From Fibrobacter sp. (GTDB lineage Bacteria; Fibrobacterota; Fibrobacteria; Fibrobacterales; Fibrobacteraceae), in assembly GCA_017550445.1 (NCBI GenBank), contig JAFZOV010000144.1:1-48092 (forward strand): a DNA stretch of 48,092 bases. The letters run 5' to 3'. This document shows positions 5,768 to 48,092 of the stretch, in pieces. A model generated the notes under the pieces. The model was not told the origin of the DNA, searched no databases, and saw only the letters and a program-made list of their open reading frames with translations. The translations under genes and the position numbers were made by a program. Each line of letters opens with the position of its first letter. Positions within the stretch are counted from its first letter, which is position 1.

Positions 5768-6958
5768 CTACTTAACCATCACACAACGAATGGAGAATCC
5801 ATGCGTTTTATACGTACTGTAATTAGAGTTTGCCGTTGAGGATTTACTTTGTAGACCCGCTAATGCTGATGGTTGATCTAGAGTACCCTCTTCAGGATAA
5901 AACCAATATGTACTGCTATTTAATTTTTCAAATTCATGATTCCAAAGATACCCAGCCCCAACCAAGCTGTACCCCGTATAATTATGTCCCCCAAACGCTT
6001 TAGCACGCACCCCTTTGACACCTGCATCATTATCATCAGCATGCACCACTATATAAAAATCATTATAAGTCAACAAGCGCCATCCATCTGGACAAATGCC
6101 TTGGTGATTCGGTTTAATCAGGTCAGCACAACTCTTGGTATTGCATTCGCTAGGCAACTGCATCGCTTCAGCCCACTGATAAAGCCCCCCATACGTAAGA
6201 CATACGACAGTGTCATTGTCATAACAATATCGTTCTATTTTAGAGTCATCTGACTGATCTTTAGAACCATCAACCATTTCACCAATATTCAGGTTTTCGG
6301 CCATAACATTTATAGTTTCGCTCTGACCATCAGCATTCTCTCCCGTAATCGTTCGATATTTATAAACTCGATGATTTCTAGAATCCACAAATTCACCATA
6401 CGAAAGATTTGGACTGAAATACTCTACTTTTACAACACTACTACTCGATTCTTCCACCACACTACTGCTCGAAGCAACAACACTCGAAGAAGACTGCTTA
6501 ACTTCTTCGCTGCTGCTCGACTTCGGCGTTACACTGGAAGAGGAGGCCTTCACAGCGCTGCTGCTAGAATCTTCTTTTTTGGCAGAGGAAGAACTATTCT
6601 TATCGCCATCAACGGAGCTAGAAGAATTCTTGGTTGTTGTTGAGGAACTAGATTCCTTCGCATTCTTCTCGCTAGAAGAAGACTTTTCCTTATTGGCGCT
6701 CTTTTGCGAACTCGAGGAATTCTTGGAAATTTTTTCACTGCTAGAACTTACATTATCGCAGTCATCGCTCTGTTCCTCGCACTGGCGGGGTTCCGGCGAA
6801 ACAGAAGAAGAGGATTCATCGCCACATGCGGCAAACAGGGCTAGGAGAATGGACAGAGCCAATAACATGCGAAGCGAATGCCGCGGCAGGCTGCTTGCAG
6901 ACTGACATGGCTGAGCTGATGCTGTTATGCGCTTGCGCAATGCGTTAAAAATCTTCAC
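5768..6958 (-). CDS. FISUMP-domain lipoprotein
   Basis: Probable outer-membrane/surface lipoprotein of 396 residues. GTG at 6958 is chosen because GGAGGT lies 5 nt before it. The hydrophobic segment MLLALSILLALFAAC (about 31-45) ends in a lipobox (C45). A long poly-Ser/Lys/Glu linker follows, with blocks of SSSS. The C-terminal ~200 residues are a Fibrobacter major paralogous domain (VMAENLNIG...CYDNDTVVC...YGGLYQWAEAMQ...GICPDGWRL...FSIRCV). The first 30 residues before the signal core are unusual and share a 19-bp DNA match with an intergenic site at 12385; an internal ATG at residue 31 is an alternative start. Ligand and role are unknown. Confidence 0.85.
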   Translation of the reverse strand: MKIFNALRKRITASAQPCQSASSLPRHSLRMLLALSILLALFAACGDESSSSVSPEPRQCEEQSDDCDNVSSSSEKISKNSSSSQKSANKEKSSSSEKNAKESSSSTTTKNSSSSVDGDKNSSSSAKKEDSSSSAVKASSSSVTPKSSSSEEVKQSSSSVVASSSSVVEESSSSVVKVEYFSPNLSYGEFVDSRNHRVYKYRTITGENADGQSETINVMAENLNIGEMVDGSKDQSDDSKIERYCYDNDTVVCLTYGGLYQWAEAMQLPSECNTKSCADLIKPNHQGICPDGWRLLTYNDFYIVVHADDNDAGVKGVRAKAFGGHNYTGYSLVGAGYLWNHEFEKLNSSTYWFYPEEGTLDQPSALAGLQSKSSTANSNYSTYKTHGFSIRCVMVK

Positions 6959-6963
6959 AGAAG

Positions 6964-7012
6964 ACCTCCGGTTATACAAATCCCACCAAACTTTCAATTC
7001 TACGCAAATATA
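6964..7012 (-). promoter_or_regulatory. Promoter -10 and ribosome site of 5768 gene
   Basis: TATATTTG (7012-7005) matches the -10/-7 type seen before several genes in this window. The strong GGAGGT at 6969-6964 sits 5 nt from GTG at 6958 and decides that start. The region 7013-7144 shows nothing else recognisable. Confidence 0.55.
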
Positions 7013-7144
7013 ACAAAACCAAGACTACTTTAAATACTAGCAAGTCAATTATATCACCAACCACGTCTTGAGATTTTTTTTTGTAAAATTTGAGGATTTT
7101 TGTCAACTGTAGGTTGCAAAACGAATGCTTTTCTATAAACACAC

Positions 7145-7173
7145 TTGATTTTCCTAAACCAATTAGGTATATT
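7145..7173 (+). promoter_or_regulatory. Promoter of small two-gene unit
   Basis: TTGATT (7145-7150), a 17-nt spacer and TATATT (7168-7173). The spacer contains the palindrome CCTAA-ACCAA-TTAGG, a possible operator. The predicted leader (about 7180-7269) is long; no known riboswitch pattern was recognised. Confidence 0.6.
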
Positions 7174-7269
7174 ATAACTACGCCGGTTCAATAGAGCGTT
7201 GCCGGGCTTTCACCTGTTTAGTGCTAGCTCCAGAGTTAATATATTCACCTTCAGAATAAGGATAAGGCT

Positions 7270-7422
7270 ATGGCTATTCGTTGCAAACCGGCAAGATTTC
7301 CCAATTGCAAGCCAGTTGTGGTTCCGCCCTCGCAGGTTGAAAGGGTCTTGAAATACCTTAGGGGCGAAATAAACGTCCCAGTGGTTGATCGCCCGATTAT
7401 AGACAAGCCTGACGATCAGTAA
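7270..7422 (+). CDS. Small hypothetical protein (50 aa)
   Basis: Runs from ATG at 7270 to TAA at 7420-7422 and encodes 50 residues. It begins MAIRCKPARFPNCKPVV, has two cysteines at residues 5 and 13, and an acidic tail (RPIIDKPDDQ). AAGG lies 5 nt before the ATG. The next gene starts 4 nt after the stop, so the two are probably co-transcribed from the promoter at 7145. No family was recognised. Codons are AT-rich like the neighbour, which suggests an accessory origin. Confidence 0.55.
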   Translation: MAIRCKPARFPNCKPVVVPPSQVERVLKYLRGEINVPVVDRPIIDKPDDQ

Positions 7423-7426
7423 GCAG

Positions 7427-7735
7427 ATGCTTCAACCTAATGATTTTTCTTTACTTCCTTGCACAAAGGAAGATGTTTCAGCTATTGCTTCTCGGGGACA
7501 TTTCTGTTTTCCTCCATTTGATCCGGTAAAGGACGATGATCCAGTCTCTTTGGATACATTCTTTTGTAAAGTTGTCCCTAATGAGGATGAAGAACATTTT
7601 TCCAAAACATATAAATTGGTAAAAAATGTAAAACCGAATGATATGCTTGGTTGCATAGAGGTGTTTAACGAAGAAATTGAAGATGAGGCAGAATTCATGT
7701 TCATTGATATTTGGAAAACATCCCCTAAAAATTGA
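7427..7735 (+). CDS. Small acidic hypothetical protein (102 aa)
   Basis: 102 residues, acidic, cytoplasmic in appearance. It begins MLQPNDFSLLPCTKEDVSAI and contains KNVKPNDMLGCIEVFNEEIE. There is no signal peptide or membrane helix. It starts 4 nt after the 50-residue protein and ends just before a strong terminator, giving a compact bicistronic unit. Family not recognised. A toxin-antitoxin or immunity pair is possible from size and spacing but nothing in the sequence proves it. Confidence 0.65.
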   Translation: MLQPNDFSLLPCTKEDVSAIASRGHFCFPPFDPVKDDDPVSLDTFFCKVVPNEDEEHFSKTYKLVKNVKPNDMLGCIEVFNEEIEDEAEFMFIDIWKTSPKN

Positions 7736-7751
7736 GTTGTTTCTAAAAATT

Positions 7752-7790
7752 ATTTAGCAGGAAAATAATTTTCCTACTAAATATTTTTCT
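7752..7790 (+). terminator. Terminator of small two-gene unit
   Basis: ATTTAG-C-AGGAAAA pairs with TTTTCCT-A-CTAAAT around TAA (7752-7782), with one mismatch, followed by a T-rich run to 7790. Confidence 0.85.
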
Positions 7791-7828
7791 TGACAAACAC
7801 AACTAGCTTGCTTTCTTATAAACAGGAG

Positions 7829-7850
7829 ATGCCCGCTCGGCGGCGGGCAT
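7829..7850. repeat. Dispersed hairpin repeat ATGCCCGC/GCGGGCAT
   Basis: Perfect 8-bp stem with a 6-nt loop, followed by GACA, as in the copies at 3205, 17203 and 46215. It lies past the end of the adaptor gene but lacks a T-run on that strand. Confidence 0.6.
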
Positions 7851-7876
7851 GACATTTAACTTTTTGCGAATTTAGC

Positions 7877-19354: not shown

Positions 19355-20176
19355 ATGGAACCGATCACGTCTTACCAAGATTATCGAAAGTACATGCAAG
19401 ATTATTATGAAGAACGCAAGCGCAGTTCTTTGTTTTCTTGGCGTGAATTTTCGCGATTGGCAGGATTCAGTTCGCCCAACTACCTCAAGCTCGTCTGCGA
19501 AGGGAAAAGTCGAGTCAGCAAAAAAGGGGTTGAAGGCGTTGCCGACGCCATGGGCCTCGAAGGAATTGACCGCGACTACTTTTACGCGATGGTGCGTTTT
19601 GGAGACGCCAAGAATGACGAAAAGAAATTGCAAGCATTCAACGAGATGCAAAAAATAGCGAAGGAAAATCGCCTGCACATTGTTGATGCCGAAGCATTTC
19701 AATATTTTCAATCGTGGGTAAACCCGGTGATGCGAGAACTTGCGCCAATCATGCCCGGCGCAAAACCGCTGGAACTCGCACGGCAGTGCTACCCAGTAGT
19801 GAGCGCTGCAGATGTCCGCTACGCTCTAGACTTTATGACGCATGCGGACTTTTTGAAAAAGACCGGCGAAGACACTTACGAGCAAACCGAAAAGGTGGTG
19901 ACAGGGTCTTCTGAGGCGATTCCCCTCGCGCTGCGTTCCATGAACCGACAAATGTCCAAGTTTGCAACATCCGCCATTGACGAGGTTCCGCCAAAAGAGC
20001 GTCATATCGCAGGCGTGACGCTCGGCTTATCCGAAACCACTTACCAGTGGCTTGTCGAAAAACTGGAATTGCTGCGGCAACAAGTTGTTGCCATGGCTGC
20101 TAAAGAAAAAGATTACGATAAAGTCTATCGATTGAATTTGCAATTGTTTCCGCTGACTAAAGGGAAGGAGGCTTAA
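19355..20176 (+). CDS. TIGR02147 family putative regulator
   Basis: Member of the Fibrobacter paralogous family TIGR02147 (DUF4423-type), thought to be transcriptional regulators. It is 273 residues. The N-terminal MEPITSYQDYRKYMQDYYEE and SWREFSRLAGFSSPNYLKLV segment looks like a helix-turn-helix; the C-terminal half is helical (VVSAADVRYALDFMTHADFL, a winged-helix-like piece, then LRSMNRQMSKFA and VYRLNLQLFPL). The paralogue at 44018 aligns along the whole length. AAGGAGG at its 3' end serves the next gene, which starts 1 nt after its stop. No Shine-Dalgarno site precedes its own ATG. Confidence 0.88.
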   Translation: MEPITSYQDYRKYMQDYYEERKRSSLFSWREFSRLAGFSSPNYLKLVCEGKSRVSKKGVEGVADAMGLEGIDRDYFYAMVRFGDAKNDEKKLQAFNEMQKIAKENRLHIVDAEAFQYFQSWVNPVMRELAPIMPGAKPLELARQCYPVVSAADVRYALDFMTHADFLKKTGEDTYEQTEKVVTGSSEAIPLALRSMNRQMSKFATSAIDEVPPKERHIAGVTLGLSETTYQWLVEKLELLRQQVVAMAAKEKDYDKVYRLNLQLFPLTKGKEA

Positions 20177-20177
20177 C

Positions 20178-20993
20178 ATGAAAAATCTATACAGAATAAT
20201 TATTGCAGGGATAGTCGCCATTTGCGTTTACTGTTCAGACGACCCAAGTACAGCAGGAGCAACCACAGAACCGAGTTCCTCACCAATAGCAAACTCCGAC
20301 CCAATTGACATTGTCGACACACCATCGACAAAAATGCCAATTTCCGTTCTAGTAAGGGCTGTAGAAACATTGATTGACATTTCGCCATACTATCCACAAT
20401 TATGCGACTATGATTCCCTTGCAAATTTACCCGATACAATCTTTATGGATTTTGTCCATTTACAGTTCTCAACAGACGCTAACCCCGGGCCTACACAAAC
20501 TTACGTTAGCAAGGATCAGCGCAACAAATGCACCGTTACGCCCTATCCAGAAGACGCCATTGTCACATTTAAAGATCAACTTAGCTATCGTGAAGATTAC
20601 ATATCACTCTACACTGCATCTAAGTTTGTCCAAATTGAAGGCTATTCCGTCATTATTAAGACAATTGTAGACGGCGGCTATTGGGGATATGGAGTCAGTT
20701 GCCCTGAATATTTAGCACAGTTCAAAAAATCCTGTGAAGAATCCAACGGCTATTTCAAAAATTTAGGATCCAACATCTTTAACAATTATATGAACGCCGA
20801 ATGCTATGTTGAACCAACCTCTTTTGCATGTTCGATGCCAGCACCGAAGGGAATGGATGCAAACACCGCAACCGAAATATTCTTAGAAGAAGCCAAGAAC
20901 GCCTGCATCGAAGATTCCCTAAGGTACGCCCCTTTCGACAACGAACAAGACACCATCATTTCACGCTTTTCTGAAGGAGATGTCCTTAATTAG
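20178..20993 (+). CDS. Exported hypothetical protein paired with TIGR02147
   Basis: 271 residues. The N-terminal signal MKNLYRIIIAGIVAICVYC may end in a lipidated Cys (19), but the lipobox is not canonical. A short Ser/Pro/Thr linker is followed by a globular domain with many Cys (for example YPQLCDYD, KCTVTPY, SCPEYL, KSCEESN, AECYVE, FACSMP), which suggests disulfides outside the cytoplasm. No family was recognised. It starts 1 nt after the TIGR02147 stop with a strong AAGGAGG, so the two form an operon. Confidence 0.8.
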   Translation: MKNLYRIIIAGIVAICVYCSDDPSTAGATTEPSSSPIANSDPIDIVDTPSTKMPISVLVRAVETLIDISPYYPQLCDYDSLANLPDTIFMDFVHLQFSTDANPGPTQTYVSKDQRNKCTVTPYPEDAIVTFKDQLSYREDYISLYTASKFVQIEGYSVIIKTIVDGGYWGYGVSCPEYLAQFKKSCEESNGYFKNLGSNIFNNYMNAECYVEPTSFACSMPAPKGMDANTATEIFLEEAKNACIEDSLRYAPFDNEQDTIISRFSEGDVLN

Positions 20994-41461: not shown

Positions 41462-41506
41462 TTTTTCTTCCTTCTTTGTTGGAGTGTTTTTGCATCCCTC
41501 ACACCT

Positions 41507-41635
41507 ACAAATATAGGCTTTTTAAACAATTTAGAACACAAAATCATCATTTTTCTTTAAATTTTACCATTTTCAATGTTTTTATAAAATTTTAAGCAAT
41601 TTGGAATACAAAAGTTGTATTCTTGGAATACAGAG
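41507..41635 (-). promoter_or_regulatory. Promoter/operator of lipoprotein operon, shared type
   Basis: Aligns over its full length with 44886..45013. TATATTTG (41514-41507 region) is the -10. Upstream, a 17-bp palindrome TGTATTC-CAA-GAATACA lies at 41632-41616, another TGTATTC at 41610-41604 and TGTGTTC at 41540-41534. A conserved AATGGTAAAATTT block lies between. The half-site order and spacing (70 and 12 nt) nearly match the other copy (71 and 10 nt). Confidence 0.7.
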
Positions 41636-41644
41636 TCTAAGCCA

Positions 41645-41700
41645 CTCCGATCCATACGAAAAAGGCCCCGCATTAGCGGGGGCTTTTTCGTAGGTCGGAG
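41645..41700 (-). terminator. Large terminator of 41716 gene
   Basis: A 56-nt hairpin: CTCCGA/TCGGAG at the base and TACGAAAAAG...CTTTTTCGTA around CCCCGC-ATTA-GCGGGG at the top. On the minus strand the core GC stem is followed by CTTTTTCG. It insulates the next operon. Confidence 0.8.
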
Positions 41701-41715
41701 CGTTTTTTGACCTAA

Positions 41716-44028
41716 TTAATCTTTTATGCAACGGACAGGGTAGCCAGATCTTTTTTCATATCCATGCAAGCCTACTTCGCCCCCTTTAGACACAGACAAA
41801 GCTACCACAAGTTCATATTCTAGATGATCTCTGATAAAAAGTTCTTCCGAATTCCAATAGTCATCCGTCGAACTCCATATATACCCATACTCGCCATCAT
41901 CGTCATAAATATACTCGCCAATATCCATATAAGCCACCGGAATTCTTTTGCGGCCAGAAGGGAGGAACGAAAAGCCGTAAGGATTTTGTTCATACAAGGT
42001 ACTAGAAGCATTAAGCGCATCTCCGGCATCATTTACCCCACCAACCGCGAGCACCAATTCATAGAGTTCATCACGATTCGGTATATGCCAGCCAGCAGGG
42101 CAAACACCGCGTACAGGGAAAGTCGGAGTACAAACAACACCGTAGCCACAGCCTTTACCGTTTTCGCTCCATGTCGCAGCACTATCCATGGCCGCGCTCC
42201 AAAAATACAGGCGACCATACTTTGCGCAATATTTCAAGGAATCATTGTAGCAGAAACTGGTAGAATCCAAACTATCCGATGGTTGCAAAGAAGCATAATT
42301 CAAATTTTCCGCCATCCACCACTGTTTGCCAATTTTCACAGTCTTGTAAGTTTGACCGTCGCGGTCATCAGTCAAAGTTCCATACTCGCAATCATCCGAA
42401 CCTCTTCTATTGCAAACCCGAGCAACCTCGATGCTGCTAGACGAATTCACCGAAGCAACAGAACTGCTGGAACTAGGCTCAACATCCATCATACAGCGAA
42501 TAGATTTACTTATAGATTTATGATCAAGGAATGTAGCCGCATACTCGTTCGTATCCACATGTATGCCATACGCATAGCTACTGCTTTCATCACTAGAAGT
42601 CCAGAAGAAACCTTCTCGTCCCTCAAATTGGAACACTCCACTCTCATTCTTGAAACCAGCAGGCAACGCAGTAAAGGAATAGTCATCCGTGCCGTTATGT
42701 CCTCCATCCCAACCAGTTGTTGATTTAAGCTTTCCGCCCGCTTCCCATCTTTCTCCAACCAGTTCGATTAGCGAGACAAACTCCTCTACGCTCGGCAAAT
42801 GCCACCCTGTCGGGCAAGCATTCAACGCATCTTTCCAAGCATAAAGATGACCATATTTATCACAATAGCTCGCACTGTCATTATAGCAGTAGCTATTCGG
42901 CGTTTCGTAGTTCAAGTTTTCCGCCATCCACACTTGGCCACCGATTTTAGTCGTTCTATAAGTCCTTCCGTCGCGCAGGTCCTTGAGCGTATTTGCAGCC
43001 GCATCGTACCTACTGCCCGCATCCGCCTTTACGGAACTGCTACTAGACCCTTCGACTTCGCTCAGGGCGACACTACTAGAAGACGAGTCCGCCGAAGATA
43101 CCGAACTACTGGATCGCTTCCCCTCTTCGAGGGTCGCAATGACGTCACTGGAAGAAGATCCTTCGACTTCGCTCAGGATGACACTGTCGCCATCCGTGAC
43201 AACGGCAGGAATGTACTTTTCGAATGCAGGGACCGTATCCGCATAGCCCAGGCCTTCAAGGTTCTTGCGGATGGTTTCAAGTTCACCGTTCGCAGAAGCT
43301 TCGGCAACCCATTCCGCAACAGCATCCTTCGTCTTAGAATCTTTCCACTCACCGCTTTCGGCAAAGGAATCGTCAAAATTGTCGAGGCGCTTGGCAAGTG
43401 CGGTTTCATCGGCATCGCCCTGCATCATCACACTCACGGCGAGCAATGCAGCGTTACCGTCACCCGGTTCAAAGACATTCAGGTTTTCGAATTCATCGAT
43501 TTCGCCCTTGATGTCGAACGCGGCAAGCACTTCCTTTTCGGCCTGAGTTTTCGCCTTGGCCAAAGTCTTGTTCTTTTCTTTCACAAGGAACATCACGCGT
43601 TCGTATTCCAAGTTCGTGAGCAAGTTGACGTTCACGTTCTCGCGATCCTTGAGATCAGTCAGCGCACGCAGCGTCAGTTCGCCACTCGACTTCTTGCCCG
43701 AGACTTCGTTCAGGTACTTACCCGTCACTTCGACTACCGCACAGGAGGTATCGAGAGCAACGCTATCAAGGGCAAAGTCACCCTTGTCGCTCTTAACCGC
43801 ACCTTCAAAAACCTGATCCGTGAATTCCAGCGTCTTACAGTCGATGCCACGCACCGTCACGGCAGAACCCTTTACGAACGGACCCTTCTGGGCAACGCCC
43901 GCCACATCGGCCACAAAGCCGGCATCTTCCGAGACTCCACCCGAAACACGGTCGTCATCGTCGCTGGAGCATGCGGCAAACATTACCGACATTCCCATAA
44001 ACGCCGAAACAAACAGGTTACTCTTCAT
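41716..44028 (-). CDS. Double-FISUMP lipoprotein coupled to TIGR02147
   Basis: 770 residues from ATG at 44028, with GGAG 4 nt upstream; the start overlaps the end of the TIGR02147 gene by 11 nt, so translation is coupled. Signal with lipobox MFAAC (Cys 20), a GVAQKGPF domain (about 44-270), then a linker with SSSS blocks (about 280-335) partly encoded by dispersed repeats (43046-43183). Two FISUMP domains follow: WMAENLNYETPNSYCYNDSA...CPTGWHLP...SIRCM and WMAENLNYASLQ...GVCPAGWHIP...YPVRCIKD, each about 190 residues, separated by another Ser linker. Probably surface-exposed and perhaps substrate-binding; ligand unknown. Confidence 0.88.
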   Translation of the reverse strand: MKSNLFVSAFMGMSVMFAACSSDDDDRVSGGVSEDAGFVADVAGVAQKGPFVKGSAVTVRGIDCKTLEFTDQVFEGAVKSDKGDFALDSVALDTSCAVVEVTGKYLNEVSGKKSSGELTLRALTDLKDRENVNVNLLTNLEYERVMFLVKEKNKTLAKAKTQAEKEVLAAFDIKGEIDEFENLNVFEPGDGNAALLAVSVMMQGDADETALAKRLDNFDDSFAESGEWKDSKTKDAVAEWVAEASANGELETIRKNLEGLGYADTVPAFEKYIPAVVTDGDSVILSEVEGSSSSDVIATLEEGKRSSSSVSSADSSSSSVALSEVEGSSSSSVKADAGSRYDAAANTLKDLRDGRTYRTTKIGGQVWMAENLNYETPNSYCYNDSASYCDKYGHLYAWKDALNACPTGWHLPSVEEFVSLIELVGERWEAGGKLKSTTGWDGGHNGTDDYSFTALPAGFKNESGVFQFEGREGFFWTSSDESSSYAYGIHVDTNEYAATFLDHKSISKSIRCMMDVEPSSSSSVASVNSSSSIEVARVCNRRGSDDCEYGTLTDDRDGQTYKTVKIGKQWWMAENLNYASLQPSDSLDSTSFCYNDSLKYCAKYGRLYFWSAAMDSAATWSENGKGCGYGVVCTPTFPVRGVCPAGWHIPNRDELYELVLAVGGVNDAGDALNASSTLYEQNPYGFSFLPSGRKRIPVAYMDIGEYIYDDDGEYGYIWSSTDDYWNSEELFIRDHLEYELVVALSVSKGGEVGLHGYEKRSGYPVRCIKD
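43046..43183. repeat. Dispersed palindromic repeats inside a coding linker
   Basis: Three repeat-like pieces lie in the Ser-rich linker: 43046-43072 and 43157-43183 (on the minus strand CCTGAGCGAAGTCGAAGG with GTC flanks) and 43115-43144 (CGTCATTGCGACCCTCGAAG type). Similar sequences occur between genes in many bacteria. Here they are in frame and translate to LSEVEGSSSS (twice) and ATLEEGKRSSSS. Confidence 0.75.
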
Positions 44029-44881
44029 GATCTCCATCCTTTTTTGTCGCAATTTTGTCGTCTTTCTTTAAACATTCACTCATCGGGAACAGCTGCAAGT
44101 TCAAGCGGTACACCTGCTCCGTGTCATCGTCTTCGGTCACAATCGCCATAATGCGGCGGCGGCAATCGGCAAGTTCCTTCTTGATCCGCTCGTAAGCGCG
44201 GCGCGTGATTCCCATGGTAAGGCCAGACATGTCGCGTTCCGAAAGCGGCAAGCTAAGCGCCTTGACCGCGAATTCAGCCATCTGGCGTTGCAAATCGCGG
44301 GCCGCCACAGGCACCGCATCTACAGAGCCCATCGAAATGGCCTTGTCTGTCTGGTGGTAATTGCCGTCCTTGTCTTTTTTCAGGAGCTTGGCGCGCAGCA
44401 AAAAGTCGAGCGTCTCGGAGACCTCGGCTGCGGTAATCGGCTGCTTGCAAGCCTTCGCCATTTCAAGCGGCTTTGCCCCGGGCATGTGCGGCGCAAGCTC
44501 TCGCAGCACCGGATTTTTCCACGATTTAAAATACTTGAACTCTTCGTCCCCCAACACACGTACCTTGTGAGCCATGGCCAATGCACAGCGTTCTTCGAAC
44601 GCGGCCCGTTTCGCCTCGTCCCCCTTCGCATGCGCGTAAGAAACCATCAGCACAAAGTACGTGTGCTCAAACCCCACCAACCCCATAGCACTCGCTACGG
44701 AACCTGCAGCCCCTACGCTCAGGTTTTTCTTCCCCTCACAGACATACTTCAGATAAACCGCAGACGAAAAACCCGCGTCTCGCGCAAAGTCTCGCCAGGT
44801 AAACGCAGAAGTGCGCTTACGTTCATCGTAGTAGTCCTGGATGAACTTGCGGTAATCTGTGTATTCTACGATCTCCTTCAT
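44018..44881 (-). CDS. TIGR02147 family putative regulator
   Basis: 287 residues, second member of the family in the window. N-terminal MKEIVEYTDYRKFIQDYYDE and AFTWRDFARDAGFSSAVYLK align with the 19355 protein; the middle keeps FKSWKNPVLRELAPHMPGAKPLE, and the end keeps EQVYRLNLQLFPMSE. A likely helix-turn-helix is at about 25-60. No Shine-Dalgarno site; TATATTTG ends 5 nt before ATG, so the message is probably leaderless. Its last 11 nt overlap the lipoprotein gene start. Its promoter region resembles that of the 41461 operon, so it may regulate both itself and that operon. Confidence 0.88.
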   Translation of the reverse strand: MKEIVEYTDYRKFIQDYYDERKRTSAFTWRDFARDAGFSSAVYLKYVCEGKKNLSVGAAGSVASAMGLVGFEHTYFVLMVSYAHAKGDEAKRAAFEERCALAMAHKVRVLGDEEFKYFKSWKNPVLRELAPHMPGAKPLEMAKACKQPITAAEVSETLDFLLRAKLLKKDKDGNYHQTDKAISMGSVDAVPVAARDLQRQMAEFAVKALSLPLSERDMSGLTMGITRRAYERIKKELADCRRRIMAIVTEDDDTEQVYRLNLQLFPMSECLKKDDKIATKKDGDHEE

Positions 44882-44885
44882 GCAT

Positions 44886-45013
44886 ACAAATATAGCCTAA
44901 TTTCAAAGACTCAGGACACAAATCAGCCATTTTCGTTCAAATTTTACCATTTCTGCAAAATTTTCAAAATTTCAGCAATTTCAAGAATACAATTCGTATT
45001 CTAGGAACACAAG
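44886..45013 (-). promoter_or_regulatory. Promoter/operator of TIGR02147-lipoprotein pair
   Basis: Aligns with 41507..41635. TATATTTG (-10) is next to the start codon. Half-sites: imperfect palindrome TGTGTTC-CTA-GAATACG (45011-44995), TGTATTC (44991-44985) and TGTGTCC (44920-44914). The conserved AATGGTAAAATTT block lies between. Likely autoregulatory region. Confidence 0.7.
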
Positions 45014-45026
45014 AATCATTTTGCTA

Positions 45027-45081
45027 TTGACATATCACTTTACTTTTGGTATATTACTAAAAGTAAGTTACTAAAAGTTAA
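45027..45081 (+). promoter_or_regulatory. Consensus promoter with palindromic operator
   Basis: TTGACA (45027-45032), 17-nt spacer, TATATT (45050-45055). A near-perfect 27-bp palindrome (45040-45066; arms TTACTTTT and AAAAGTAA, 12 of 13 pairs) covers the -10. A third copy of the half-site, GTTACTAAAAGTTAA, follows at 45067-45081. A repressor binding here would block the polymerase. Confidence 0.75.
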
Positions 45082-45092
45082 ATAAGGTCATT

Positions 45093-46211
45093 ATGAAAAA
45101 TCCGTTCTCTCTAGAGCCCTACACCACAAAAGAACACTTTTGCGATCGCGAACAAGAACTTAAGGATATTGTTTCCCTTTTGACCAATGGTTCGAACGTC
45201 ACGTTGATTTCCCCTCGACGTTACGGCAAGACCGGACTCATTTTTAGGACATTTGAAGACCTTCGCGAGAAAAAATACACCTGTATATACGCGGATATTT
45301 TTTCGGCACAAAACCTGGATGACTTTATCAAAATATTATCCGAAGCCATTGTAAACGCTATGGCAAACGACTCCCTGATAAAAAAATTCTTCGTTGCGCT
45401 TAAGAACGTCCGTCCGCTCCTTAGTTACGACCCTATTTCCGGGAGCCCGCAGATTTCGTTTTCTTTCCAAACAGAATCACAAAAAACTCCTACATTGAAA
45501 GCCATTTTTGACTTCCTCGAAAAACAAGGAAAACAAGTCATTTTCGCCATTGATGAATTTCAGCAAATCAGGGAATTCAAGGAAACAAATATCGAAGCCC
45601 TGCTACGCACATACATTCAACAGTTGCATCATGTGAAATTTATCTTCTGTGGCAGCAAAAAGCATTTGATGGCAGACATGTTCACCAACGCAAAGAAGCC
45701 CTTTTACGAAAGCTCCAGAACAGTCTATATTGATCGAATCGATTCCGAAAAATACAAGGCTTTCATCGCAAGTCTTTTCAAAAAAGCCGGTAAATCCATT
45801 GATGACGAAGCCATTGAGTTCATCTTGAATTGGACTAAACGGCACACCTACTACACGCAATTCGTATGCAACCAGGCGTTTGCAGGAGACTCCAAAAGAG
45901 TTTCGTTGGAAGATGTAAAAAACGTTATTTCAAGTATCATTCGATTCGAAATTCCGAACTTCATTGAGCGACGCAACCTGCTCACCGAAAAACAGTGGCA
46001 ATTTTTGATCGCTGTAGCTAAGGAAGGTTCTGTAAAACAGCCCACCGCAGGAGCATTCCTAATGAAATACGGTATAGGAAATAGCGCTACCGCAAAGAAA
46101 ATTCTTACAGCACTCATCGAAAAAGAACTGTTGCTGGAGCAAAGCGATTTAAGCGGCAAGAGTTACAGCGTCTATAACGTATTCATGTCACGTTGGATGG
46201 AAACACTTTAA
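45093..46211 (+). CDS. AAA ATPase (archaeal-type ATPase family)
   Basis: 372 residues, cytoplasmic. Walker A is SPRRYGKTGL (40-49, the family's SPRRxGKT form), and Walker B is VIFAIDEFQQI (Asp 154, Glu 155). A sensor-type segment FIFCGSKKHLMADMF follows. The C-terminal ~90 residues look like a winged helix (LTEKQWQFLIAVAKEG...ATAKKILTALIEKELL). Such STAND/ATPase_2 proteins are of unclear function; some are linked to defence or mobile regions. AAGG precedes ATG. It is divergent from the TIGR02147 gene and has its own operator, so it looks independently regulated. Confidence 0.88.
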   Translation: MKNPFSLEPYTTKEHFCDREQELKDIVSLLTNGSNVTLISPRRYGKTGLIFRTFEDLREKKYTCIYADIFSAQNLDDFIKILSEAIVNAMANDSLIKKFFVALKNVRPLLSYDPISGSPQISFSFQTESQKTPTLKAIFDFLEKQGKQVIFAIDEFQQIREFKETNIEALLRTYIQQLHHVKFIFCGSKKHLMADMFTNAKKPFYESSRTVYIDRIDSEKYKAFIASLFKKAGKSIDDEAIEFILNWTKRHTYYTQFVCNQAFAGDSKRVSLEDVKNVISSIIRFEIPNFIERRNLLTEKQWQFLIAVAKEGSVKQPTAGAFLMKYGIGNSATAKKILTALIEKELLLEQSDLSGKSYSVYNVFMSRWMETL

Positions 46212-46304: not shown

Positions 46305-48092
46305 TTAGTCCTTCACACAGCGGACTGAGAACCCGTAGTTCTTATAGCTGTCGTACAGGCCCGCACCCACGTCGTCGCCGCGATAGTACAAGTACATGCC
46401 GTAGGCGTAGTTGCTATCGTTCTCTGTAGCACTCCAAAAATAAGCGTAGAGGCCATCGAAGTCGAAACTGGCATGGCTGTAGCTGCGGCCGACGGACAAC
46501 GCGGTGAACCCGAAAGCGTCCGTACCGTTGCCATTACCATACCAACCGGTCTGGGACTTGAGAAGTGTGCCAGCCTTCCCCGACCCGCCTACAGCCGTGA
46601 ACAGGGAATTCCATTCACCGTTGTTTGGCAAGTGCCAGCCATCGGGACAGATTCCCTGAATTAAGGTCGCTGAGCCTACCGAATCGAGGCCACATTCCTT
46701 GCCATAGCCGCAGTCCAGCGAATTGTCCGCATCGGTAGCAAGTTTCACCGAGTCGATGGCCGCAGCCCACGTATAAAAACGACCAGCCACATCACAGTGT
46801 TCTGCTTTATTGTTGTGGCACCAAGACCAATCGTATTTTGCATCGCCAGAACCACCCTGACCAGGGTCAAAGTTCAAGTTCTCCGCCATCCATACCTGGT
46901 CGCCAATCTTCACCGTCTTGTACTGCTTGTTGTCTCGGGTATCGATCATAGTGCCATAGTCAATATCAGGATTAAAACGACATTCCTTCGGTACATTCCA
47001 GTTCCAGTCTGTTTCGCCTTCCAAAAGCACCAAGCAATTCATCTTGTCCTCGCCACTACTGGAACTTGACTCAGTTTCACTAGAGTTCGGCTGCACTTCA
47101 ACAGAACTGCTCGACTTCGGCGTGACGCCGGAAGAACTGCTGGAGCCAGATACAATCGCTGGGGAGGCGTCCTTCAAGCAACGAACCGACAATGCAAAGT
47201 TTTTACTGTCACCACCTAGGGGCATATACTCGTTGTAGTAGTACAAGAACATGAAGTAGGCGAAATCATCACCGCCCTCAGCGGTAGTCCAGAAGTCAGT
47301 GTATTCGCCATCACAGGTGAATTCGCCGACGGTATCCCTGCGGCCAGCTGGCAATGCGGAGAAGCCGAACGCATCTGTGCCGTTGCCGCCATCGTGCCAG
47401 CCGCTCCGGGACTTGAGGGCCGTGCCAGCAATGGATTGTCCGCCCACCTCCGAGAGAAGTATATTCCATTCTTCTTCGCCGGGCAAATGCCAGCCCGTGG
47501 GGCAGGCGTCCATTGCAGCCGCCCATGTGTAGAGACGGCCATACTTGTCGCAGTATTTTGACGAATCATTGTAGCAGTAGCTCTTTTCCGTTGCGTAGTT
47601 CAGGTTTTCCGCCATCCACACCTGGCTACCGATTTTCACTGTCTTATAAACCTTGCCGTCACGGGCATCCGTCAGAGTATTCTTTTCGGCATTGTATGTC
47701 GTGTCTTGAGAGAAACTGCTACTGGACCCTTCGGCAGACTCAGGACTCTTTGACGAACTACTCAAGACAACGCTGTCGCCGTCTGCGTAGGCTTCGATGA
47801 ACTTTTCGAATGCGGCAACCTTGTCGCCGTCGTTCCAAGCTTCGACGTTCTTGCGGATGGAATCAAGCATGCCGTTCGCCGTCGCCTCGATAGCCCATTC
47901 CGAAATCGCCGTTTTCGTGTCGGAATCTTTCCACTTACCGGTTTCCGCAAACGAGTCCGCGAACTTTTCCATGCGTTTTGCAAGTCCCGTATCGTCCGTT
48001 TCCGCCTGCATCATCACGCTCACGGCAAGCAGCGCCGCGTTCTCGTCGCCCGCCTCGAAGATGTTCAGGTTCTCGAACTCCTCGAAACTGCC
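46305..48092 (-). CDS. Double-FISUMP lipoprotein (5' end beyond window)
   Basis: 595 residues visible; the frame is open to the right edge, and the signal and first part are missing. The visible N-terminal part is the end of a GVAQKGPF domain (NLNIFEAGDENAALLAVSVM...DSIRKNVEAW), the same as in the 41716 protein. A Ser-rich linker follows (SSSSKSPESAEGSSSSF), then FISUMP domain 1 (WMAENLNYATEKSYCYNDSS...CPTGWHLPGEEEW...LSVRCLKD) and domain 2 (WMAENLNFDPGQGGSGDAKY...GICPDGWHLPNNGEW...FSVRCVKD). The order equals that of the 41716 protein, so they are paralogues. Codon use is more GC-rich than in the 38861-41461 genes. Confidence 0.85.
   Translation of the reverse strand, partial: GSFEEFENLNIFEAGDENAALLAVSVMMQAETDDTGLAKRMEKFADSFAETGKWKDSDTKTAISEWAIEATANGMLDSIRKNVEAWNDGDKVAAFEKFIEAYADGDSVVLSSSSKSPESAEGSSSSFSQDTTYNAEKNTLTDARDGKVYKTVKIGSQVWMAENLNYATEKSYCYNDSSKYCDKYGRLYTWAAAMDACPTGWHLPGEEEWNILLSEVGGQSIAGTALKSRSGWHDGGNGTDAFGFSALPAGRRDTVGEFTCDGEYTDFWTTAEGGDDFAYFMFLYYYNEYMPLGGDSKNFALSVRCLKDASPAIVSGSSSSSGVTPKSSSSVEVQPNSSETESSSSSGEDKMNCLVLLEGETDWNWNVPKECRFNPDIDYGTMIDTRDNKQYKTVKIGDQVWMAENLNFDPGQGGSGDAKYDWSWCHNNKAEHCDVAGRFYTWAAAIDSVKLATDADNSLDCGYGKECGLDSVGSATLIQGICPDGWHLPNNGEWNSLFTAVGGSGKAGTLLKSQTGWYGNGNGTDAFGFTALSVGRSYSHASFDFDGLYAYFWSATENDSNYAYGMYLYYRGDDVGAGLYDSYKNYGFSVRCVKD
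47725..47754. repeat. Possible repeat-derived linker segment
   Basis: On the minus strand the tract reads GAGTCCTGAGTCTGCCGAAG and then GGTCC, similar in pattern to the repeats at 43046 and 43157. It encodes KSPESAEGS in the Ser-rich linker, at the same linker position as in the paralogous gene. Confidence 0.45.

Follow-up and report, generated by a model that had tools for sequence, protein, structure and literature searches.

A duplicated multi-site promoter element suggests local autoregulation by a TIGR02147 family protein in Fibrobacter

We analyzed a 48,092-nt stretch of a Fibrobacter sp. contig (JAFZOV010000144.1 of assembly GCA_017550445.1; hereafter, the window) in which a promoter element of about 130 bp occurs twice on the minus strand. 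One copy ends at the start codon of a gene encoding a TIGR02147 family protein, here called the regulator, which is followed by a partner lipoprotein gene; the other lies upstream of an operon of two further lipoprotein genes. Sequence-based comparisons drawn from metagenome-assembled genomes make it likely, in our assessment, that the TIGR02147 protein controls its own gene through a private operator of several sites, probably looped, which one neighboring operon also carries. With respect to the parts of this proposal, we think it very probable that the protein binds both copies of the element, and we somewhat favor both looping between distal and proximal sites and activation rather than repression. 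Comparative evidence supports the original prediction for this DNA, in which an autoregulated regulator was suggested to have a local regulon: the element stands at orthologous TIGR02147 genes, the second copy recurs in the closest clade, and strong copies are local. Beyond that prediction, we observed paralogue-specific operators, phased A-tracts, a predicted leaderless start, and a missing −35 hexamer.

RESULTS

Two copies of one element

The two copies align end to end with a local score of 50. The best score among 2,000 pairs sampled from a Markov model was 21, which rules out chance similarity, and all other tiles of the window scored 20 or less, leaving these as the only strong copies in the window. 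In a profile built from 41 elements the copies score 84.1 and 81.5 bits, a match that holds by construction because both are among its members, and the next match in the window reaches 11 bits. Each copy carries, in order, a distal palindrome (O1), a second half-site (O2) beginning 20 to 22 nt beyond the start of the palindrome, an AT-rich spacer in which AATGGTAAAATTT occurs, the last of the half-sites (O3), and the −10 sequence TATATTTG. The three half-sites start 117, 95, and 25 nt upstream of TATATT in the lipoprotein copy and 117, 97, and 26 nt upstream of it in the regulator copy. The original prediction had described a duplicated promoter/operator of about 128 bp that aligns end to end, with half-site spacings of 70 and 71 nt and one perfect palindrome, TGTATTC-CAA-GAATACA. 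Its coordinates and alignment are borne out (Table 1), the distal-to-proximal spacings come out at the same values when measured from half-site starts (70 nt in the lipoprotein copy and 71 nt in the regulator copy), and the perfect palindrome is present in the lipoprotein copy, its counterpart in the regulator copy being imperfect.

Array geometry in TIGR02147 paralogues

TIGR02147 is highly expanded in Fibrobacter, with 22, 41, 29, 34, and 33 genes in five genomes (G001 to G005, respectively). From 216 profile hits we obtained 186 distinct genes with upstream DNA. For 183 of these the upstream sequence was 200 nt or longer, and a −10-like match was present in 152 of the 183. Leaving out 8 of the 183 genes that had too little downstream DNA, an open frame carrying a lipobox-like motif comes next in 142 of 175, and it often overlaps the regulator gene; the pattern used was simple, and several of the 33 negatives look like lipoproteins by eye.

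In many paralogues a half-site lies at or near the −35 position, preceded by helically phased A-tracts. Beyond these, the same half-site returns in direct orientation at a distance of about 71 nt, inverted at about 82 nt, and again direct at about 91 nt; in the window regulator type, the direct copies lie at about 70 and 91 nt and the inverted one at about 81 nt. The sequence of the half-site differs between paralogues while the geometry of the array is common. Among 61 unselected representatives, the −10-proximal region matched its own distal region better than it matched those of dissimilar paralogues (14.67 versus 12.14; z = 8.6).

Proximal sites were also read by hand in 44 of the 61 representatives (the 17 whose site could not be read by eye, 12 distant members and L105, L106, L124, L128, and L139, being left out) and in 3 added genes without an automatic −10. 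Of these 47 hand-read genes, 5 were also in the automatic set, so that 47 automatically read and 42 hand-read genes make up a total of 89. Hand-reading favors TTTG/TTTA sites, and the sites of L125 and L040 were set by eye; this affects the recurrence and A-tract results for the 42 paralogues, the hand-read promoter classes, and the residue/base agreement over all 89 genes, while the own-match test above, the 47-gene residue/base test, and the lag test are independent of it.

In the 42 diverged paralogues, the proximal site recurs directly at 70 to 74 nt (19 cases), inverted at 81 to 85 nt (9 cases), and directly at 90 to 92 nt (3 cases). Over 60 to 105 nt there were 40 matches, whereas 300 half-site swaps gave 6.3 on average and never more than 13; this null is slightly lowered by its omission of pairs with identical half-sites. 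In the lag test, which involved no hand-reading, 10 of 35 core paralogues had their best direct-repeat lag at 69 to 75 nt, where 1.8 would be expected (binomial P = 8e-6). Also prominent were lag 21 and multiples of 7, and we think that they are inflated by a 7-nt repeat upstream of L088, which was left in.

Spacer, promoter classes, and sign of control

In the close clade, the A-tracts of the spacers repeat every 9.5 to 10 bp, with z-scores inflated by the relatedness of the 41 elements. They are phased at the same 9.5 to 10 bp in the 42 diverged paralogues, with z = 10 against AT-rich control DNA (itself less AT-rich than the spacers, 73% versus 82%) and z = 13 against a composition-matched Markov control. 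Curvature is therefore predicted, and a bent spacer together with constant spacing argues for one complex joining the distal and proximal sites.

The promoters of the 89 genes, 2 of which have no usable −10, fall into two classes. In the near class (51 genes, among them all 47 that were read automatically and belong to the type of the window regulator), the half-site starts 24 to 27 nt before the −10, and none of the 51 promoters has at least five of six matches to a −35 hexamer. The half-site of the far class (36 genes) starts 36 to 39 nt before the −10, a shift of about one helical turn, and 20 of the 36 have at least five of six −35 matches with a spacer of 16 to 17 bp (Fisher P = 3e-10 between classes, the related genes not being independent). 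Because the near class has no good −35 and O3 lies in its place, we infer that RNA polymerase is recruited by the regulator, which would thus act as an activator and, perhaps, also as a repressor when its concentration is high.

The strongest alternative is a pure autorepressor, in which the array-bound protein would keep RNA polymerase from both promoters until it is released by a signal, which may come from the lipoprotein or its ligand, and in which looping would strengthen repression. Xre-type helix-turn-helix (HTH) proteins are often autorepressors, the structural matches of the regulator include repressors such as P22 c2 and 434, and in near-class promoters the −35 region is overlapped by O3. 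Yet that class offers no good −35 to block, and the far-class half-site lies just upstream of an intact −35, a place better suited to polymerase contact than to exclusion. Although neither argument is decisive, we consider pure autorepression unlikely.

The −10 hexamer ends 7 nt from the ATG in all 47 automatically read close-clade genes. Transcription should therefore start at or next to the start codon, and a leaderless regulator mRNA is predicted for the window clade. Since the N terminus is similar in paralogues that have an ordinary leader and ribosome site (MKDVLEY... versus MKEIVEY...), the start codon of the predicted leaderless class has probably been placed correctly. A far-class subgroup (L040, L038, L035, and others) has a leader of about 45 to 70 nt with a TAGGAGG ribosome site and is not leaderless; the geometry of its upstream array is similar.

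Conservation and locality of the element

The element lies directly upstream of the start codon in most close homologues of the regulator gene. We found the lipoprotein-operon copy in the window and in L001, L002, L017, and L024, which form one tree group with L006, a locus (8,705 bases) that ends too early to tell. The lipoprotein gene downstream of the second copy was also confirmed in L213, L214, and L215, bringing the number of loci to eight; because these three were chosen for matches ending short of the start codon, they confirm the downstream gene and not its frequency. In all eight loci the three half-sites and their spacing are kept, at 117 to 118, 95 to 96, and 25 to 26 nt before the −10. 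Copies of one kind agree across genomes by 79.5% (lipoprotein) and 76.5% (regulator), and the two kinds agree within a genome by 67 to 80%; the duplication therefore predates these species.

These comparisons bear on whether the second copy could be a remnant of tandem duplication that gave the lipoprotein operon a promoter without common control by the TIGR02147 protein. The two copies do lie within 3.5 kb of each other and have bases outside the half-sites in common, for example, in the mid-block. However, the duplication is old and common to several species, yet the three half-sites and their spacing are kept in every lipoprotein copy, which makes such a passive origin highly improbable.

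A genome-wide scan had been suggested in the original prediction, with random scatter counting against it. With a sequence-only profile (R1) and 150 candidates scored per genome, we found 3, 3, 3, 2, and 1 matches of at least 57.7 bits in G001 to G005, respectively, 12 in total, the next best scoring 33.2 bits; in G001, G002, and G003, all three strong matches lie inside 7.5 kb. The whole element is local, and its scatter through the genome is ruled out by the one to three strong copies in each of the five whole genomes. The palindrome alone (TGTRTTCNNNGAAYAC) gave a divided result, with 12 places in three genomes, 6 of them before TIGR02147 genes or the lipoprotein copy and 6 elsewhere; the reversed-pattern control had no occurrences in these genomes. 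A half-site combined with CTATATTTG was found at only two places, both in G003, and this pattern is too strict for counting copies. Several weaker R1 matches lie just upstream of other TIGR02147 genes (e.g., G002:C38:42201, G002:C26:165288, and G003:C14:60832), among the 150 of 159 gene matches listed for the five genomes. Across 61 genomes of the genus of G001, searched at 1e-9 with stricter filters, 35 have at least one match, for a total of 82 places, 1 to 5 per genome and often several per contig.

Covariation between residue 30 and a half-site base

In the 47 automatically read genes, the second half-site base is G with Arg30 (30 of 30) and A with His30 or Gln30 (17 of 17), and residue 28 (Thr/Ser) splits the two groups equally cleanly. 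When the 42 hand-read genes are included, 88 of 89 agree, with His, Gln, and Pro at residue 30 going with A. With the HTH region excluded from the tree, residue 30 switches between Arg and non-Arg four times, and the independent pairs agree, three of them on well-supported branches. The eight lipoprotein-operon copies all carry the G-type site, fitting the adjacent Arg30 regulator, and the arrays of the neighboring His30 or Gln30 regulators in view (L001, L002, L017, L024, L213, and L214) are A-type.

The predicted model places residue 30 as the second residue of helix 2 (29 to 36); by comparison with known HTH proteins, helix 43 to 48 would be the recognition helix. Profile alignment places residue 30 opposite the E in the S-Q-E motif of C.BclI. 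For C.Csp231I, published data describe how substitutions in S16-Q17-E18 abolished specific binding (PMC4824078), and the motif suggests that the region of residue 30 may be equivalent. At one candidate locus, L010:+:7020 (6887-7857, plus strand), a His30 HTH and an A-type array are joined to a protein body whose nearest group in the tree is that of an Arg30/G gene (Shimodaira-Hasegawa-like approximate likelihood ratio test [SH-aLRT], 97), an apparent chimera that suggests joint exchange of HTH and operator.

On its own, the A-tract spacer could be a binding site for a nucleoid protein or for the alpha subunit of the polymerase, but a general or nucleoid-associated protein that reads the array, with the TIGR02147 protein acting elsewhere, seems to us extremely improbable, as one common reader does not explain a half-site that varies between paralogues and tracks the HTH residue of the adjoining gene.

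Genes of the two operons and their surroundings

The regulator is a clear family member, matching NCBIfam TIGR02147 over residues 1 to 269 (330.1 bits; cutoff, 50) and Pfam DUF4423 over residues 103 to 267 (102 bits; cutoff, 30), and its HTH is supported by a profile and by the predicted model. Its closest relative, 98% identical, is encoded in a Fibrobacter genome assembled from sheep reticulum. In the predicted model and by structural comparison, the second half consists of a winged-helix-like part and two long helices, and it is likely to be the place for dimer formation and sensing.

The description of two lipoprotein operons in the original prediction is fair: a FISUMP lipoprotein gene follows the regulator gene, and both products of the second operon start with lipoprotein signal peptides. 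Given an ATG at 44028, a start that we chose, the partner gene overlaps the regulator gene by 11 nt; its product matches FISUMP TIGR02145 in two stretches (332 bits; cutoff, 41.65). Pfam and NCBIfam scans of lipoprotein 1 gave zero matches, and its signal region is 87% identical to that of lipoprotein 2. The regulator's partner and lipoprotein 2 have a domain in common (40% identity over 240 columns), and the second operon therefore encodes a relative of the product of the first. The second element copy has a predicted leader of about 40 nt before lipoprotein 1, containing a purine-rich stretch.

Table 1. Positions of the genes and promoter features discussed in the text
Feature	Position	Strand	Basis
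TIGR02147 family protein, 287 amino acids; Xre-like HTH (about residues 10-84) and DUF4423	44018..44881	-	NCBIfam, Pfam, predicted model
Partner FISUMP lipoprotein	41716..44028	-	TIGR02145 in two stretches; lipoprotein signal peptide by eye
Lipoprotein 1 of second operon, 331 amino acids	40466..41461	-	Lipoprotein signal peptide
Lipoprotein 2 of second operon, 525 amino acids	38861..40438	-	Lipoprotein signal peptide; domain common with regulator's partner
Regulator copy of element, ending at ATG of TIGR02147 gene	44879..45014	-	Alignment and profile match
Regulator copy O1, distal imperfect palindrome TTGTGTTCCTAGAATACGA	44994..45012	-	Sequence; kept in homologues
Regulator copy O2, second half-site	44982..44992	-	Sequence
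Regulator copy mid-block AAATGGTAAAATTTG, conserved, within phased A-tract spacer	44938..44952	-	
Regulator copy O3, proximal half-site at expected −35 place	44914..44922	-	Sequence
Regulator copy −10 TATATTTG; end of TATATT 7 nt from ATG at 44881	44887..44894	-	
Second element copy, upstream of lipoprotein operon	41505..41636	-	Alignment and profile match
Second copy O1, perfect palindrome TGTATTC-CAA-GAATACA	41616..41632	-	Sequence
Second copy O2, second half-site	41597..41611	-	Sequence
Second copy mid-block, conserved, AAATGGTAAAATTTA	41558..41572	-	Sequence
Second copy O3, proximal half-site	41534..41542	-	Sequence
Second copy −10 TATATTTG	41508..41515	-	Sequence
Purine-rich, ribosome-site-like stretch ahead of lipoprotein 1	41462..41475	-	Sequence; function inferred
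Terminator-like hairpin separating the two operons	41658..41688	-	Pattern scan and sequence

Many partner lipoproteins of TIGR02147 genes carry a short motif such as AGG..EE or AGG..ED right after the lipidated cysteine, with later domains that differ; the motif may be a sorting or signaling tag. A further FISUMP protein (46305-48092, minus strand) is cut by the end of the window, and its regulator, if any, lies beyond it. Divergent from the regulator is an ATPase_2-type gene (45093-46211, plus strand) with a promoter-like TTGACA-17-TATATT at 45027-45055, followed by TTACTAAAAGT repeats; ATATTACTAAAAGT is also found upstream of homologues in L012 and L020, 2 of 182 loci.

DISCUSSION

Our model builds on the common element, its geometry, the periodicity of its spacer, the missing −35, the covariation of residue and base, and the gene order, and it proposes how binding, looping, sign of control, transcription start, and signal may fit together. 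The TIGR02147 protein would recognize TGTRTTCY half-sites at two promoters, its own and that of the neighboring lipoprotein operon. The intrinsically bent A-tract spacer would bring together the molecules on the distal array (the O1 palindrome plus O2) and on O3, so that the promoter answers to one multimeric complex. The regulator mRNA, starting at or next to the ATG, would also carry the partner lipoprotein, and the second copy would bring two more lipoproteins under the switch. Many core Fibrobacter paralogues may be separate switches of the same kind, each with its own half-site.

A wider proposal, on which our judgment is evenly balanced, is that 20 to 40 mutually insulated regulator-lipoprotein cassettes per genome run many Fibrobacter surface lipoproteins. 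Each cassette would have a private operator abutting its own HTH-coding sequence, often a leaderless start, and one bent-loop geometry; operator and HTH would be exchanged together by recombination, so that specificity moves as one cassette, and the rule relating residue 30 to the half-site base would partly predict the target.

Several results weigh against the autoregulator model. The second copy was not found at L008 (an 11.4-kb locus and a clade neighbor on the tree) or at the L003 locus, and 26 of the 61 genus genomes have no strong match to the element at 1e-9; a number of these 26 genomes are small and are probably not complete, and in others the only paralogues may be ones with a different half-site. 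In the own-match test, no more than 18 of 61 promoters were individually in the top 5%, and its inverted form was weak in the same 61 (z = 2.4; 7 of 61). The second TIGR02147 gene in the window (19355-20176, plus strand), which is followed by a small lipoprotein gene (20178-20993), fails the own-match test individually; its proximal site TGTATTATG has CGTATCATA 70 nt upstream, so that the geometry fits only with mismatches. The residue-30 rule has an exception, L116:-:1404, and its tree-aware support amounts to three or four independent changes, which are too few (sign test, P = 0.25). Finally, none of 17 distant Fibrobacter members had its best lag at 69 to 75 nt, and among 30 genes from G066 and G075, two other genomes, the count was 4.3 (1.6 expected), which is not significant (P = 0.07). 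The geometry is therefore shown for the core Fibrobacter group and not for the whole family, and a phylum-wide rule is unsupported.

The closest known parallel is provided by the C proteins of restriction-modification systems. As described for C.Csp231I and C.Esp1396I, these combine an Xre-type HTH, a multi-site operator at their own promoter, a leaderless message, and an mRNA common with the effector gene; Esp1396I has a second C-box ahead of another gene, and C proteins both activate and repress, at low and high concentrations, respectively (PMC4824078). The system described here likewise has an Xre-type HTH, an array at its own promoter, and a second array before another gene, and its message, predicted to be leaderless, would be common with the partner gene. 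C proteins, however, are small and little more than an HTH, whereas the regulator has 287 amino acids with DUF4423 after the HTH. In contrast to the adjacent left and right C-boxes, its distal and proximal sites lie about 70 to 71 nt apart across phased A-tracts, and it has lipoprotein partners and 22 to 41 paralogues per genome. The regulator is not a C protein, because protein size, operator spacing, and partners differ; the six window proteins scanned gave no match to restriction or modification genes, the overlapping gene being that of a FISUMP lipoprotein.

LacI, AraC, and lambda CI are looping regulators with separated operators, and the element resembles theirs in having copies of one half-site at a helically constant distance in one promoter. 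Unlike in those systems, many paralogues within one genome retain the geometry although their half-sites have diverged, and the spacer is filled by phased A-tracts. The regulator also appears to differ from the peptide-sensing RRNPP proteins (Rgg, ComR, and PlcR), in which the HTH is followed by a peptide-binding repeat domain, in that the modeled second half looks winged-helix-like, with two long helices; PlcR aligns over the HTH only, and the whole-chain matches of ComR and ElrR are very weak (template modeling score, about 0.2).

The TIGR02147/DUF4423 family (NCBIfam paralogue family Fsuc_second) has no function assigned to it in the catalogue, and our full-text literature searches found no paper naming TIGR02147. 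An operator, autoregulation, and a leaderless start are the additions that we propose. In the genome paper on F. succinogenes S85, the transcriptional control of cellulase genes is presented as an unanswered question, and recognizable regulators are described for only a handful of gene clusters (PMC3079729). The FISUMP domain was counted 17 to 119 times per genome in all surveyed Fibrobacteres genomes but one and was suggested to be a possible cohesin analogue (PMC4704652).

In conclusion, the paralogue-specific arrays suggest many separate, self-controlled switches for cell-surface proteins in rumen Fibrobacter. If this is true, targets could be predicted for a large hidden layer of surface-protein control, and recognition rules and insulation could be tested on dozens of naturally occurring regulator/operator pairs that have one geometry in common.

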